From: Spirochaetes bacterium ADurb.Bin218
GTDB lineage: Bacteria; Spirochaetota; UBA4802; UBA5550
NCBI GenBank assembly: GCA_002069965.1
Contig: MWCI01000017.1
Coordinates: 1 to 55,215 of the forward strand
Length of the DNA stretch: 55,215 nucleotides
Direction: 5' to 3'
Shown here: piece by piece, positions 44,926-54,137 of the stretch
Layout: the number at the start of each line of letters is the position of its first letter
Numbering within the stretch: position 1 is the first letter of the stretch
Translations under genes and position numbers: made by a program
The notes under the pieces: generated by a model
Told to the model about the DNA's origin: nothing
The model's database searches: none
What the model saw: only the letters and a program-made list of their open reading frames with translations

Positions 44926-47631
44926 ATGGATATAAAGAAAATTATTGAAGAAAATTTTAAGGCATTCCAGAAGTTTAATAATCTGAAATATGAGAGATTT
45001 CAGAGCCTTGTGACCAATAGCAGTGTCAAGAAGGTTATAAATGCTATACCTGCCCTGTTGTCTGCAAATGATCGTAAATTGCCTGGTTTTGTGGAAGGTG
45101 GCCCTCCTTGTGGTGTCTTTGGTTTTTCTCCAGATCAGGATGTCGTGAGATATTTGAAGTCCAGATTTTCTGTTGATTTTTCCAGATGCTCAGGAGGGGA
45201 CTTTGTCCAGATGTTTGCTGTCATGGGAAGCGTTGGGACAATTGGATATAACAAAAAGTCAGATTTTGATTATTGGGCATGTATAGATAGACAGAAGGTG
45301 GATGATAGAAAATATCAGCTCTTTTGCAAAAAAGTGGAAGAAATTCAGAAATGGGCTATTAAAGAAAGCGGAGTAGAGGTCCACATTTTTATAAATGACA
45401 TTAATAGTTTAAGGGAAAATGTTTTTGCAGAGGATGAGGATGAAGGTTTCGGTTCCACTGTAGGAGCAGTTTTAAAGGATGAATTTTTTAGAAGTTCAAT
45501 TATAATTGCAGGTAAAATTCCTTTCTGGTGGGTTGTTCCAAAGTTTGCCGATGATAAGGCCTACGTTTCCTTTATAAATTCCATTGACAGTGATTTTTTT
45601 GATTCTCATTTTATTGATATTGGCAATCTGCACAGAATCTCTAAAGAGGATTTTTTGGGCGCTGCTTTGTTTCAACTAATCAAGGCTATTGGCAATCCCT
45701 TCAAATCCATTCTCAAAATAGGTATTCTTGAAAAATATCTCTTTAGCGATGAAAATGTTTTGCTCTCTCATAAAATTAAAAGCTCAGTTCAAAAGGGTGA
45801 ACTGGATATATTGACCCTTGATTCTTATCTTTTGATGTTTAATGAGGTTTATAAGTATTATGAGTCTGTTTTGCAGGATAAGTCTCTACTTAAGATTCTC
45901 AGACAGAATTTATATTTAAAGATAGATCCTCAGCTTACAAAGTATACAGGCATAAAGGATAGAAAAAATCTGCCCTATAAGGTAACTGTAATGTTTAGTC
46001 TCGTCAATGAATGGGGATGGGGAATTGATGAGATAGGAGATCTTGACGACTTTGAAAGCTGGGATTACAATAGAATTATTCAATTCTGGAATAATATAAA
46101 AAAGTTTATGCTTCTGTCCTATCAGAAGATTTCAAAAGAATTGCCTACTCTTAACTTAAGAAGCAAGATCTCTGAAAGCGACTTTAAGCTTTTAAGCAGT
46201 AAGATTAAGGCTAATTTTTCCACGGAGCCTGATAAAATAGAAAACTTTATAACCTTTAAAGACACACCAAACGAGCCTTATTTGTATATTGAGCCAGATA
46301 GTAAAGCTGTCAGGGATTATGGATGGAAGCTGTATAAAAAAGTTAGAATTGAAGGCAGAAGCGAGAGAGAAATTAGCATAAAAAATGAGACAGATCTTGT
46401 AAAGCTTTTAAGCTGGTGCTCCATTAATCAGTTATATGAGCCATCCTTCAGCAGGGTCTTCTTTGAACCAGGATATAATTATATAAATAAGAACCTTGTA
46501 ACAGAGCTTTTAAACCATATATTTGAGATGTTTAATTCAGGAAAGGTCCATCTATCCAATAAGTTTTTTCTTGAACCTCCGAGAACACTGAAAAATATGA
46601 TCATAATGAATTTCACGGAAAATAATCCAACAACTATTGCATCTTTTTATCATCTATATATGAATACCTGGGGTGAGTCTTTTCTAAAGAAATATTCTTC
46701 TATGTCAGATCTTGTGATGCTCTATTCAAAGATTATTAAGGATGCTATATATTTCTCAAAGGATTTTGATGAGTTTTGTTATTTCTTCTCTCCTGAACCT
46801 CATAAAAAGATCTACAGGAATATTGAGAAAATATTTAGAAGCTCATACGACTTTTTTATAAAAAGCAAGGAGTTTTATAATCAGAAGCTTATAACATCAA
46901 TTGATAATACTATTATATGTGTAACAAAGGAAAATAATGACATAAATGTCGCTTCTTTTGGTACTGTTTTTGAAATGCTGGGGTATATATCACAGAGGCC
47001 CTGTAGATATCCTGAATTTAGAATTCTTTTTGAGGATTCGCAAAATCTTGCTGTCCTTGACGAGATTTATAGCAGGAGAACTGTAAATGGAATTAACATT
47101 ACCTATGAAGAAAAGCAGAAGTATTCGGTCTTTTATATAACAGATGAAAATGGCAATCTCTTCACTTTCATAAAAAAGAAGTCAGATGTTGATATTATGT
47201 CTTACATGTATCGCTTCTGTCTCAATACAGCAAAGAGAGTGAAAGGGACATCAACTGGCAGGAGTTTTTTTGATGAGGTAACGTCATTTAAACTGGAGGT
47301 TGATAGATTTGGGAAATTTTCAATAAAAAATGAAACAAGGAGAGCTAAAGAGATTGATGTTATAAATTCCTCTTTCCCTATGGGAATTATTGCTGAGGTA
47401 ATATATAAAGATAGCTATCCCTTTTATATATTGAGAGCTGGAGGCAAACAAACAAAACCATCTTCTTTGTCTAAAATCGTAGAGAATTATAAAACCTTAG
47501 GGATGCAAAATCCTCCAGAAATAATTGACATTAAATTTCACAATCTAAGTCCAGATAAATTGGAAAGTGGCTCCATGGTCTATTTTCTTGAAAAATTCAG
47601 ATTGGAAAAAACTCTCGGCTCTTCTTTTTAA
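44926..47631 (+). CDS. cyaA: Class I adenylate cyclase
   Basis: This 901-residue soluble enzyme makes cAMP from ATP. The catalytic nucleotidyltransferase motif MGSVGTIGYNKKSDFDYWAC begins at residue 100. It corresponds to the MGS...SD.D.W.C motif of enterobacterial CyaA, with Asp111/Asp113-type metal ligands (numbers approximate). VEVHIFINDINS and STVGAVLKDEFFRSS follow, as in CyaA. The C-terminal ~450 residues form a regulatory part without a clear family. It lacks a Shine-Dalgarno. No CRP-family regulator is in the window, so cAMP targets are unknown. Class I cyclases are mostly known from gamma-proteobacteria, so this is an outlying lineage. Confidence 0.88.
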   Translation: MDIKKIIEENFKAFQKFNNLKYERFQSLVTNSSVKKVINAIPALLSANDRKLPGFVEGGPPCGVFGFSPDQDVVRYLKSRFSVDFSRCSGGDFVQMFAVMGSVGTIGYNKKSDFDYWACIDRQKVDDRKYQLFCKKVEEIQKWAIKESGVEVHIFINDINSLRENVFAEDEDEGFGSTVGAVLKDEFFRSSIIIAGKIPFWWVVPKFADDKAYVSFINSIDSDFFDSHFIDIGNLHRISKEDFLGAALFQLIKAIGNPFKSILKIGILEKYLFSDENVLLSHKIKSSVQKGELDILTLDSYLLMFNEVYKYYESVLQDKSLLKILRQNLYLKIDPQLTKYTGIKDRKNLPYKVTVMFSLVNEWGWGIDEIGDLDDFESWDYNRIIQFWNNIKKFMLLSYQKISKELPTLNLRSKISESDFKLLSSKIKANFSTEPDKIENFITFKDTPNEPYLYIEPDSKAVRDYGWKLYKKVRIEGRSEREISIKNETDLVKLLSWCSINQLYEPSFSRVFFEPGYNYINKNLVTELLNHIFEMFNSGKVHLSNKFFLEPPRTLKNMIIMNFTENNPTTIASFYHLYMNTWGESFLKKYSSMSDLVMLYSKIIKDAIYFSKDFDEFCYFFSPEPHKKIYRNIEKIFRSSYDFFIKSKEFYNQKLITSIDNTIICVTKENNDINVASFGTVFEMLGYISQRPCRYPEFRILFEDSQNLAVLDEIYSRRTVNGINITYEEKQKYSVFYITDENGNLFTFIKKKSDVDIMSYMYRFCLNTAKRVKGTSTGRSFFDEVTSFKLEVDRFGKFSIKNETRRAKEIDVINSSFPMGIIAEVIYKDSYPFYILRAGGKQTKPSSLSKIVENYKTLGMQNPPEIIDIKFHNLSPDKLESGSMVYFLEKFRLEKTLGSSF

Positions 47632-49527: not shown

Positions 49528-50856
49528 TCAAGTATTGCTATTTATTTTTTTAAAATAGCGAGCTATGAACTCAGAGGCCTTAGCAGCTGCCATAGGCTTT
49601 TCAAAGTAATATCCCTGTCCATAATCACAATCACAGCTTTTGAGGAGTTCTATATGTAGCTCATCATCGACTCCTTCTGCAACAACTTTGAGATTTAAGT
49701 TATGAGCAAGGCTTACGATTGATTTGACTATAATCTCACTTTGCTCATCTATGTGCATCCACTTTACAAAGGATTGATCGATTTTAATTATATCAACCGG
49801 GAAGTGCATGAGGTAACTTAATGATGAATATCCTGTTCCAAAATCATCCATATAAATAGGAAATTGTCTTGCCCTCAGTTGCAAAAGGGCTATGTTAGAA
49901 GCCTCCATGTCATCCATGAAGGCGCTTTCTGTTAATTCAAAGCCGAGCCTTTCGTGCTTTATGTTATATCTGTCAACTATTTCAAATATATTGCTTATAA
50001 GATCTGGATGAATAAATTGTTTCGCAGATAGATTTATGTTTATCCTGAAGTTATCGTCAAATATAAAAACTTCTTCCCACTGAGTTATCTGTCTGCAGGC
50101 CTCTTCTATTATCCACAATCCAAGGGGAAAGATGATGGCGGAATTTTCTGCCACAGATATAAATTGATCTGGTGGGATTAGACCTTTTTCTGGGTGTTCA
50201 ATGCGTATAAGAGATTCAAATCCTGAAAGCTTGTCTGTTTTTAATGATATAACTGGCTGATAGTAAAGTCTAAAGTAGTTATTTTCAAGGGATTCCCATA
50301 GAAGATTTTCGGTTTCTCTTTCTTTTAAAGGAATGGCCTTTGTCTTTTTTATAGATTTTGTGAATTGTTTTTCAGCAAGCAGCTCTTTTGTAATCCTGCT
50401 TTGATAAATTAAATTTGCTATGAGAGATCCTGTAAAGCTTGGGATGTCTGATGTAATATTTTTAATTTCATCTTCAACTGAAAAGAATGCACCTTTTTTT
50501 ATAAAGCCTTCAATAAAGTGGATGAGTTCCTTTTTAGAAATAGGAGTTGTTATTATTCCATCATAGGAATTATAGCTTGCAAATATATAAGATTGAATTG
50601 TATTATTTATAATTAGAGCTATGAGAGGTATGCCTCTTAACAAGGTGTGCTTTCTTAACTGTGATATCATAGAAAAGTTATTGTAAATGGAAATATCCCC
50701 TGTTATAACCAGATCTGGATTTTCTTTTTCTATGGCCTCTATAGCCTTTTCCATAGGGCAAAAAATGGTCTTATGCTTTTGTTCCTCTAAAAGCATTTTG
50801 AATTTATTGCTTATATGGTCTTTAAGGTCTAAAAATAGAATTGTATTTGAATTCAT
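49528..50856 (-). CDS. Receiver-like/EAL-domain c-di-GMP phosphodiesterase
   Basis: This is a 442-residue cytoplasmic protein. The N-terminal ~125 residues resemble a receiver domain (TILFLDLKDH, then LVITGD with uncertain phospho-acceptor) and may be degenerate. The EAL domain (about 195-435) has GFESLIRIEHPEKG (ESL for EAL), INLSAKQF, GFELTES, MDDFGTGYSS, IKIDQSFVKW, VAEGVDD and GQGYYFEKP: all main metal and catalytic residues appear intact. It should hydrolyse c-di-GMP. No strong Shine-Dalgarno is visible. It is divergent from lon and the ComFB-domain gene. Confidence 0.9.
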   Translation of the reverse strand: MNSNTILFLDLKDHISNKFKMLLEEQKHKTIFCPMEKAIEAIEKENPDLVITGDISIYNNFSMISQLRKHTLLRGIPLIALIINNTIQSYIFASYNSYDGIITTPISKKELIHFIEGFIKKGAFFSVEDEIKNITSDIPSFTGSLIANLIYQSRITKELLAEKQFTKSIKKTKAIPLKERETENLLWESLENNYFRLYYQPVISLKTDKLSGFESLIRIEHPEKGLIPPDQFISVAENSAIIFPLGLWIIEEACRQITQWEEVFIFDDNFRININLSAKQFIHPDLISNIFEIVDRYNIKHERLGFELTESAFMDDMEASNIALLQLRARQFPIYMDDFGTGYSSLSYLMHFPVDIIKIDQSFVKWMHIDEQSEIIVKSIVSLAHNLNLKVVAEGVDDELHIELLKSCDCDYGQGYYFEKPMAAAKASEFIARYFKKINSNT

Positions 50857-50970
50857 ATGTATTATTTTAATAATAATACTTTTATATGGATAGAAAAATT
50901 TCTTTTTTTTTAGATAATTTTTTTATAAACTTGAAGTTACAACTATTACTTTTGGGTATTTTTAAAAAAT

Positions 50971-50998
50971 CCTTGATTAATGATCAAGGGGATATGAT
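50971..50998 (+). promoter_or_regulatory. lon: Possible lon promoter with inverted repeat
   Basis: CCTTGAT (50971-50977) and ATCAAGG (50983-50989) form a perfect 7-bp inverted repeat with a 5-nt centre. TATGAT (50993-50998), a 5/6 -10, follows 3 nt later. The repeat lies between the -10 and the expected -35 and could act as an operator controlling lon. The -35 is weak. Confidence 0.4.
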
Positions 50999-51030
50999 TT
51001 TGCAGCTTGAATAAAAATGGAGAGATTTTA

Positions 51031-53454
51031 ATGGATTTTGATGATATAATAACAGAGGGTGGCGATTTTGCCCTTGATAGTGAGATTTTTGAAGGGGATT
51101 TACTCTATTCTGAAGCAATTCTTCCAGACAATCTATATCTTATCCCCATAAGATATAGGCCAATATTCCCGGGTATTGTAACGCCTTTGATAATTTCCCA
51201 CGGAAGATTTACCAAGGTTATTGATAAGGTTTTAAATGATTCAAGGACAATAGGTCTTGTTCTCATAAGGGATGATGACAAAGGTGAGATTGATTTTAAT
51301 GATATTTATAACTTTGGCACAGCGGCTCGGATATTAAAAAAGATCAACCTGCCAGATGGCGGTATAAATGTTCTTATAAATAGCGTAAAGAGATTTAAAA
51401 TAAGGAAAGAGATTGAGAGCAAGAAAAATCTCATTGCAGAGGTGGAGTATCTTTCTGATGTAATAGACAAAAGAGATAAAATCGAGATTAAGGCCTATAC
51501 AAGGGAGGTTCTCTCTAAGCTTAAAATTCTTTCTGAAAATAATCCTCTTTTCACAGAAGAGATGAAGCTTACCATGTTAAATGTAGAGGAGCCTGGAAAG
51601 ATTGCAGATTTTGTCACATCAATTCTTTCACTTGAGAAAAAAGAATATCAGGAAGTCCTTGAGACCATTGAGGTCAAAGAGAGGCTCATAAAGGTTCTTC
51701 ATCTTCTACATAAAGAGATGGAGGTCATGGAGGTTCAAAAAAAGATTCAGCATCAGATAAATGACAAGATCGATAAACAACAGAGGGAGTTTTTTCTTCG
51801 TGAACAGCTTAAGGCAATAAAAACTGAACTGGGCATGGATGAGGATGAACGAGCCTCAGAAGCCAGAGAAATGAGAAAGAAGTTAGAGGAACTGTGCCTT
51901 GAAGGAGAGGTTAGAGAAAAGATTACGGAGGAGATAGATAGGTTTGTTTTTATGGATCCAGCTTCCTCCGAGTATTCTGTTACAAAGACATACATTGATA
52001 CTGTTCTTTCCCTTCCCTGGAATAGCTTGAGCATTGATTCCATAGATATAGAAAAGGCAGAGAAAATTTTAAACAGAGATCATTATGGACTTGAGGATGT
52101 CAAGAGGAGAATTCTTGAGTTTATTGCAATTAAAAAGATGAAGCCAGATGCCCATGGATCTATTATATGCCTTGTGGGACCTCCCGGGGTTGGCAAAACC
52201 TCTCTAGGGAAATCAATTGCCGCTGCTTTAAATAGAAAGTTTTTTAGAATTTCATTAGGCGGTATGAGAGATGAGGCTGAAATTAAAGGCCACAGGAGAA
52301 CTTATATAGGTGCAATGCCCGGCAAAATTATTCAGGGGATTAAAATAACAAAGTCCAGAAATCCTGTTTTTATGTTAGATGAGATTGATAAAATAGGTCA
52401 GAGCTTTCAGGGTGATCCTGCTTCTGCTCTGCTTGAGGTTCTTGATCCTGAGCAAAATGTTGAATTTAGGGATCATTACCTTGATCTGCCTTTTAACCTT
52501 AGAGATGTGCTATTTATAACAACTGCAAATACTCTTGATACAATTCCGCAGGTTCTTGCAGATAGAATGGAGATAATAAGGCTTTCTGGTTATATTGCTA
52601 TGGAAAAATATGAGATTGCCAGAAAATATCTACTTCCAAAGCAGCTCAGGATGCATGGTCTGCCAAAGGATGCTGTTAAGATAGATAGAGAAGGGTACAT
52701 GGCAATAATAAATGGATGGGCAAGGGAAGCTGGTGTTAGAAATCTTGAGCGAAATATTGAAAAGATATGTAGAAAAACAGCGACACTGATTGCAAAGAAT
52801 AAATCAGTTCCATCTGGTTTTTTAACTAAGGAAGATATTAGAGAATATCTTGGTACAGAGATTTATCATGAAGATGAAAAACCAGTGATCAAAAAGCCAG
52901 GAATAGCCATAGGTCTTGCGTGGACATCCCTCGGCGGTGTTGTCCTTACAATAGAATCAATTGCTGTGAAAACTAAGTCAGGGTCAGGCCTTAAGCTTAC
53001 AGGGCAATTGGGTGAGGTGATGTCTGAGTCTGCAAATATTGCATATACTTTTATAAATCATCTTCTGCAGGATAACGATGAGGCGAGAAAGATTTTTGAA
53101 GAGTCTCTGATTCACCTTCATGTGCCTGAGGGCGCAACCCCCAAGGACGGACCATCAGCTGGGATTACTATGGCAGTATCCATCTATTCAATAGCAACAG
53201 GTCTTTTAGCAAGGGATGATCTTGCAATGACTGGGGAGCTTACTCTTTCAGGTAGAGTTTTGCCAGTTGGGGGCATTAAAGAGAAGGTTATTGCTGCAAA
53301 AAGAGCATCTCTGAAGCAGGTGATCTTGCCTCTGGCAAATAAAAAAGATTTAGATGATATTCCACAATATATAAAAAAAGGGCTGACTTTTCACTTAGTT
53401 GATGATATATTGGAAGTGCTGAGGATTTCTTTTGGCAAAAACTTCCAGAGGTGA
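51031..53454 (+). CDS. lon: ATP-dependent protease Lon
   Basis: This is an 807-residue LonA: substrate-binding N-domain (LIPIRYRPIFPGIVTPL), coiled-coil region with REQLKAIKTELG, AAA+ module with Walker A GPPGVGKTS (about 383-391) and Walker B FMLDEIDK, and a C-terminal Ser-Lys protease with Ser709 in KDGPSAGITMA and Lys752 in GGIKEKVIAAKRA. The N-terminus has a ~30-residue acidic extension (DFDDIITEGGDFALDSEIFE). GGAGAG lies 6 nt before ATG 51031, preferred to the TTG at 51007. It degrades misfolded and regulatory proteins in the cytoplasm. The ComFB-domain gene follows closely. Confidence 0.96.
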   Translation: MDFDDIITEGGDFALDSEIFEGDLLYSEAILPDNLYLIPIRYRPIFPGIVTPLIISHGRFTKVIDKVLNDSRTIGLVLIRDDDKGEIDFNDIYNFGTAARILKKINLPDGGINVLINSVKRFKIRKEIESKKNLIAEVEYLSDVIDKRDKIEIKAYTREVLSKLKILSENNPLFTEEMKLTMLNVEEPGKIADFVTSILSLEKKEYQEVLETIEVKERLIKVLHLLHKEMEVMEVQKKIQHQINDKIDKQQREFFLREQLKAIKTELGMDEDERASEAREMRKKLEELCLEGEVREKITEEIDRFVFMDPASSEYSVTKTYIDTVLSLPWNSLSIDSIDIEKAEKILNRDHYGLEDVKRRILEFIAIKKMKPDAHGSIICLVGPPGVGKTSLGKSIAAALNRKFFRISLGGMRDEAEIKGHRRTYIGAMPGKIIQGIKITKSRNPVFMLDEIDKIGQSFQGDPASALLEVLDPEQNVEFRDHYLDLPFNLRDVLFITTANTLDTIPQVLADRMEIIRLSGYIAMEKYEIARKYLLPKQLRMHGLPKDAVKIDREGYMAIINGWAREAGVRNLERNIEKICRKTATLIAKNKSVPSGFLTKEDIREYLGTEIYHEDEKPVIKKPGIAIGLAWTSLGGVVLTIESIAVKTKSGSGLKLTGQLGEVMSESANIAYTFINHLLQDNDEARKIFEESLIHLHVPEGATPKDGPSAGITMAVSIYSIATGLLARDDLAMTGELTLSGRVLPVGGIKEKVIAAKRASLKQVILPLANKKDLDDIPQYIKKGLTFHLVDDILEVLRISFGKNFQR

Positions 53455-53462
53455 GGTGCAAT

Positions 53463-54137
53463 ATGGCTTTATTTAATCTATTGGAATCAATTGTTGATGA
53501 TATAGTTACAGAGGTTCTCTCCAGAGATGAATCTATGGGACAATTACATATACACAAAAATGATATTATGGCCTATGTCCTTAATAGAGTGCCACCAAGA
53601 TATATAACTGGTGAGAGAGGAATAATACACACAATGATTGATCCAAGACTTAAATTTCAGCAGCATACGGACATTCTCTTTCTCACCTATGAGGCTATTG
53701 AAATTTTTTCAAAAAGAAGGCACTCTGACGCGATTCAGAGAGAGGATCTCACTGAGAGATCTTTTGAACTTCTGCCTCATGTTATGGGAGAGGTTCTTGA
53801 GGAGACAACCCTGTCAATCATACCTGATCTTAAAATAACACTTTTATATAGGGATAATCCTGCTCACATGACAGATTCAGGATGGAAAAATCCATATATT
53901 GGCACAAAGGCTACAAGAGGATATTTTCATTTTTGGCCAAAATACATCGAAGATGAAATGCCAGCTTCAAATATAGAATTTAAGATAAAGTTTGAGCATC
54001 CTAAATTTGAGGATAAAATTGTAAAAATTACCGTAGATAAAAGTGACAGTCGTCAGTCTTTAAAAACAGTTCGTGTTCCACTTGTTTTGCTTAAACTTAA
54101 AGCTGGTGTTGATCCTGTATTTTTAAGAGAAGAATAG
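53463..54137 (+). CDS. ComFB-domain protein with unknown C-terminal domain
   Basis: This is a 224-residue protein. The first ~90 residues match the ComFB family: VDDIVTEVLSR and IMAYVLNRVPPRYITGERG (family pattern LNxLPPRYV). ComFB proteins have been reported to bind c-di-GMP or related dinucleotides. The last ~110 residues, with KITLLYRDNPAHM and GYFHFWPKYI, form a separate domain that I do not recognise. The frame extends from GTG 53451 within lon, but GAGG (53453-53456) and ATG 53463 define the start. It lies only 8 nt after lon and is probably co-transcribed. Confidence 0.75.
   Translation: MALFNLLESIVDDIVTEVLSRDESMGQLHIHKNDIMAYVLNRVPPRYITGERGIIHTMIDPRLKFQQHTDILFLTYEAIEIFSKRRHSDAIQREDLTERSFELLPHVMGEVLEETTLSIIPDLKITLLYRDNPAHMTDSGWKNPYIGTKATRGYFHFWPKYIEDEMPASNIEFKIKFEHPKFEDKIVKITVDKSDSRQSLKTVRVPLVLLKLKAGVDPVFLREE

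Follow-up and report, generated by a model that had tools for sequence, protein, structure and literature searches.

A lon paralog and a two-domain ComFB-type gene form a conserved pair in one order of Spirochaetota

What does a ComFB-type protein do when its gene lies directly behind that of a Lon protease? The question is raised by the window analyzed here, a 55,215-nucleotide stretch of Spirochaetes bacterium ADurb.Bin218 (contig MWCI01000017.1), in which an EAL gene is divergent from lon and lon is followed by a comFB-type gene. The initial annotation of this DNA had presented the three genes together and suggested that the ComFB protein may be a c-di-GMP-controlled adaptor that directs Lon to substrates. 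Its gene layout was confirmed, including a spacing of exactly 8 nt between the lon stop codon and the comFB ATG at 53463. The features of the locus are:

49528-50856, minus strand: EAL gene (Pfam EAL, E=1.8e-72), divergent from lon and outside the conserved unit
51031-53454, plus strand: lon, the ComFB-linked paralog (TIGR00763, 951 bits; stop codon at 53452-53454)
53463-54137, plus strand: comFB-type gene, 224 aa, two domains (Pfam ComFB, 49.5 bits)
53475-53717, plus strand: ComFB domain, retaining the five dimer-interface positions and lacking the zinc Cys triad
53772-54098, plus strand: putative C-terminal beta domain of a divergent CarboxypepD_reg type (profile-profile match), with an inserted W-x-NPY segment
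54099-54134, plus strand: hydrophobic C-terminal tail ending in GVDPVFLREE, a candidate Lon-docking tail or degron based on its tail pattern

The listed reading frames open somewhat upstream, at TTG 51007 for lon and GTG 53451 for comFB; we favor ATG 51031, which has GGAGAG ahead of it, and ATG 53463, based on ribosome-binding sequences and comparison with relatives. The lon product is a Lon protease by TIGR00763, whose cut-off of 608 it exceeds with 951 bits; it has the full set of Lon domains (LON_substr_bdg, AAA, lid, and Lon_C protease) and, by reading, retains the Walker A motif and the catalytic Ser and Lys. It is one of three Lon paralogs in this genome, the other two being on different contigs (C11 and C32), and in the Lon tree the ComFB-linked Lon forms an order-specific clade with support of 100/99. 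The lon-linked comFB is the only ComFB gene in the 3.0-Mb Spirochaetota assembly. Some further features of the locus were recorded. The Lon protein begins with an acidic extension of about 25-35 residues (51031-51140), which is common to most of the order and from which other Lon paralogs are largely free. An inverted repeat, CCTTGATTAATGATCAAGG, is situated at 50970-50990, approximately 40 nt before the lon start, and the remaining sampled loci showed no TTGAT-N5-ATCAA pattern ahead of lon. On the other side of the pair, a predicted AAA-ATPase gene (PF09820, 54184-55215) begins 46 nt after comFB and runs off the window; it is not a conserved neighbor.

The initial annotation had made its proposal depend on conservation of the pairing, which we surveyed in 46 genomes of one Spirochaetota order. 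A comFB gene is present in 40 of them, representing 24 genera and six families, and each of the 40 has a comFB copy that directly follows the same lon paralog, with both genes on one strand. The distance between the matched segments of the two genes is 14-217 nt in these genomes, and the exact gap, taken at 20 loci, has a median of about 12 nt. This frequency of pairing is far above chance, and lon-comFB is a conserved unit within the order. The gene that flanks each partner on the side facing away from the other varies among the sampled loci, with at least 10 different ones per partner. The retention of the pair while nearly all of its surroundings were reshuffled suggests that the ComFB protein works with Lon.

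The same protein has a much wider distribution than the pair. With a profile of the two-domain protein, matches were obtained in 215 of the 393 Spirochaetota genomes sampled, most of them full-length, and no lon gene was found within about 5 kb of comFB at any of 45 loci from other Spirochaetota families. Outside the order the frequent neighbors of comFB are instead genes for an HD hydrolase, a TtcA-like protein, a DUF503 protein, an ion channel and aconitase. At 12 of these 45 loci a gene of one particular cluster lies within four genes of comFB (e.g., L112:559-1776); the tested representative of this cluster is a PilZ-DUF1577 protein, which may point to a c-di-GMP context. No relatives of the two-domain protein were found in viral contigs. 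Since the copies outside the order occur without lon, we consider the protein to be old in the phylum and the family not to need Lon, which makes the Lon link a derived use of the two-domain protein and not its intrinsic job.

This distribution bears on the possibility that lon and comFB are merely co-expressed, with comFB sharing the stress-dependent transcription of lon and the two proteins never meeting. The short gaps and shared strand suggest a single transcript, and the variety of comFB neighbors elsewhere (HD hydrolase, TtcA, PilZ and others) gives the impression of a gene that borrows any promoter. We nevertheless regard co-expression alone as rather unlikely, based on the survival of the pair in six families while the genes to either side were rearranged, and on the fact that the tail and the ComFB-domain changes described below are special to this clade.

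Six genomes of the order, five belonging to genus g18 and one other (G020), have this lon paralog without any ComFB gene, absence having been judged genome-wide with the Pfam model. The Lon tree indicates one gain of the pairing and two separate losses, all inside one well-supported order clade. The persistence of this Lon without ComFB in six genomes counts against a role of the ComFB protein as its partner. In g18 the Lon protein (L085-L089) has diverged more than expected: its distance relative to that of RpoB is 2.2, as compared with 1.68 (sd 0.14) where comFB is linked, and its distance relative to another Lon paralog is 1.84-2.00, as compared with 1.22 (sd 0.08). Neither the other Lon paralogs nor RpoB of g18 are accelerated. 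However, the Lon of G020, the second loss, is not accelerated (1.72). We consider the g18 divergence suggestive at best of a coupling between the two proteins and rejected it as a general proof, since it is seen in one of two losses. Additional comFB paralogs that are not linked to lon occur in two genomes from two genera of family f6 (L078 and L082); these two copies have flanking genes in common and lack the hydrophobic tail.

The EAL gene is a local neighbor and not a member of the conserved lon-comFB unit: no EAL gene was found beside lon at any of the other 19 sampled lon-comFB loci, even that of a different species in this genus (G002). Its grouping with lon and ComFB in the initial annotation therefore does not extend to relatives, and we rejected an EAL-lon-ComFB unit. 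The description of its product as a REC-EAL enzyme stands for the EAL domain, which is unambiguous at E=1.8e-72, and is doubtful for a working receiver. The receiver part falls below the Pfam cut-off (Response_reg, E=0.046) and matches the NCBIfam PleD and PhoB models at 6e-6 and 9e-6, and its phospho-acceptor and conserved Lys positions look degenerate by eye (PDLVITGD and IITTP), so that the label overstates it. The divergent arrangement in the window, and EAL catalytic motifs that appear intact by reading, would fit a local c-di-GMP circuit of all three genes, with the phosphodiesterase determining how much ligand is available to the ComFB-Lon pair. However, several other genera of the family have homologs of class I adenylate cyclase at the position of the EAL gene, directly upstream of lon and divergent from it, and this, together with the missing EAL genes at the other 19 loci, leaves such a circuit very improbable and, as a conserved unit, largely refuted. 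The window has a class I adenylate cyclase gene of its own further upstream (44926-47631), with three genes between it and lon.

What the protein may sense is indicated by its N-terminal domain. Residues ~4-84 match Pfam ComFB (PF10719) at 49.5 bits (cut-off, 25), and all 41 aligned members match this model. The score with the NCBIfam equivalog for late competence ComFB (NF052654) was 26.6 bits, far under its cut-off of 120, and by this measure the window protein is not a competence ComFB. The window domain has the same fold family as B. subtilis ComFB (4wai) and all five of its dimer-interface positions, N4, E7, D33, N40, and Y46 (defined in PMC4381287). Among 79 sequences N4, N40, and Y46 are invariant, D33 is kept in 74 and E7 in 70. 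B. subtilis ComFB differs in being encoded in the comF competence operon and in having a four-Cys zinc site, whereas the window domain has no Cys at all. Many Spirochaetota copies outside this clade retain the Cys triad; because the clade has lost it, we rejected zinc sensing of the B. subtilis kind here.

A guide to the ligand is provided by the cyanobacterial relatives. A search with the ComFB profile recovers 8hja, a c-di-GMP receptor of solved structure, at 6.6e-10, and this CdgR/ComFB protein has in common with the window protein the ComFB domain, the segments N-ME-V and D-I-AY-LNR-PP-Y, and the dimer-interface residues. Cyanobacterial ComFB proteins bind both c-di-AMP and c-di-GMP with micromolar affinity, and the gene for them is located with hfq and has a role in the control of pili or cell size (PMC12313861), whereas the window gene is linked to lon and its product has an added C-terminal beta domain; ligand binding by the window protein would be by analogy with these relatives. 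The host encodes 16 GGDEF domains and one diadenylate cyclase domain. Control by c-di-GMP, as proposed in the initial annotation, is plausible from this family precedent, with c-di-AMP equally open.

The approximately 120 residues that follow the ComFB domain are not recognized by any Pfam model in the window sequence, and had likewise not been recognized in the initial annotation. A family profile of this region aligned with the carboxypeptidase-regulatory-like profile (PF13620/PF13715) with an hhalign score of 36.3 and a probability of 87, while the controls scored far lower (100 column-permuted profiles, mean 9.4 and maximum 18.1; reversed profile, 11.2; ComFB domain, 9.2). Single-sequence Pfam matches, all below cut-off, agree with this assignment, with PF13620 matching 6 of 57 members (best E 0.0065) and PF13715 matching 3 of them (best E 1.4e-4); the window protein alone had no match to either model. 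Based on these profile comparisons, we tentatively assign the region as a divergent carboxypeptidase-regulatory-like beta domain. AlphaFold models made from a three-sequence input reached pLDDT 50 for the full-length protein and 58 for the C-terminal domain, which was modeled as all-beta; a Foldseek search with the low-pLDDT models gave no significant match and a second structural comparison gave low-Z beta proteins only, and we based no conclusion on them. We dismissed as chance a PDB profile match between this domain and ribosomal protein L23 (E 0.36).

Behind the beta domain, 21 of 31 lon-linked ComFB copies end in a hydrophobic tail of the pattern G-x(1-4)-FL-x(0-4) (G..FLYE). The pattern was absent from both unlinked paralogs within the order and from all 46 copies examined from other Spirochaetota. 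We treat the tail as a lead, since its pattern was chosen after the sequences had been viewed; moreover, genus g4 has kept the lon-comFB pair and has no tail, which counts against a partner role. There is a precedent for the use of such a tail in LarA, whose hydrophobic C-terminus of five residues engages Lon, and in HspQ, which uses a C-terminal sequence for this (PMC10665427). By analogy, the window protein is proposed to be another small protein that acts on Lon through its C-terminal sequence. LarA and HspQ, in contrast, belong to the heat-shock proteins and have no domain for nucleotide sensing, and no sequence relation to the window protein was seen.

The tail also permits a different reading, in which the ComFB protein is mainly a substrate of Lon: the receptor would be produced beside the protease that degrades it, ligand binding would decide whether this happens, and the tail would be the degron. 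The tail does resemble a C-terminal Lon degron, and LarA is both a regulator and a substrate of Lon through one tail (PMC10665427). In addition, levels of CdgR, the ComFB relative in Anabaena, rise upon depletion of c-di-GMP, for which ligand-controlled degradation is one explanation raised by the authors (PMC13075795). Yet a substrate need not stay encoded beside its protease for so long, and the acceleration of the g18 Lon after comFB loss is unexpected if only one substrate was lost. We judge it unlikely that degradation is the main role of the protein.

The best explanation, based on the binding of c-di-GMP and c-di-AMP by ComFB proteins and the inhibition of Lon by c-di-GMP elsewhere, is that this Lon paralog has the ComFB-type protein as a partner that responds to cyclic dinucleotides, either as a regulator or as a substrate-delivery factor. 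We hold this tentatively, as a reading that falls somewhat short of probable. A link between the ligand and Lon has precedent, since the Lon of Vibrio cholerae is a direct target that c-di-GMP binds and inhibits, and E. coli Lon has also been reported to be inhibited (PMC7371385). The proposed likeness to V. cholerae is that c-di-GMP signaling acts on Lon proteolysis; the difference is that V. cholerae LonA binds c-di-GMP itself, weakly (PMC7371385), whereas we propose a separate receptor encoded with lon. The analysis shows the paired genes, how their pairing is conserved and lost, the domain composition and the tail; beyond these, we infer that the protein would dimerize, bind a ligand and contact Lon, with an effect that could be activation, inhibition or substrate delivery. 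Under this proposal a cytoplasmic ComFB dimer would most likely sense a cyclic dinucleotide (c-di-GMP or c-di-AMP) and would act on the Lon made from its own operon, probably touching it through the hydrophobic C-terminal tail, with the carboxypeptidase-regulatory-like beta domain supplying a protein-binding surface.

The adaptor suggested in the initial annotation gains from the conserved lon link; it loses from the absence of the EAL gene from the unit and from the occurrence of the protein without lon elsewhere. It is one of at least three readings, as a regulator or activator and a Lon substrate fit the same evidence. An analog of such an adaptor, in function only, is SmiA, which delivers its client SwrA to B. 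subtilis LonA (PMC9204741) and belongs to a different protein family. A more specific version of the partner reading, in which the ComFB dimer is dedicated to Lon and cyclic dinucleotide binding switches proteolysis by one of the three Lon paralogs via a C-terminal docking tail, is more doubtful.

We found no paper in the open-licence literature that names both ComFB and Lon protease. To our knowledge few dedicated Lon regulators have been described, and few outputs of ComFB-type receptors. The specific version, if true, would provide Lon with a separate, operon-encoded cyclic dinucleotide switch. More generally, if the pair works together, it would offer a concrete route from cyclic dinucleotide signaling to regulated proteolysis, and the lon-comFB pairing is a first handle on a two-domain protein that more than half of the spirochaete genomes sampled encode.
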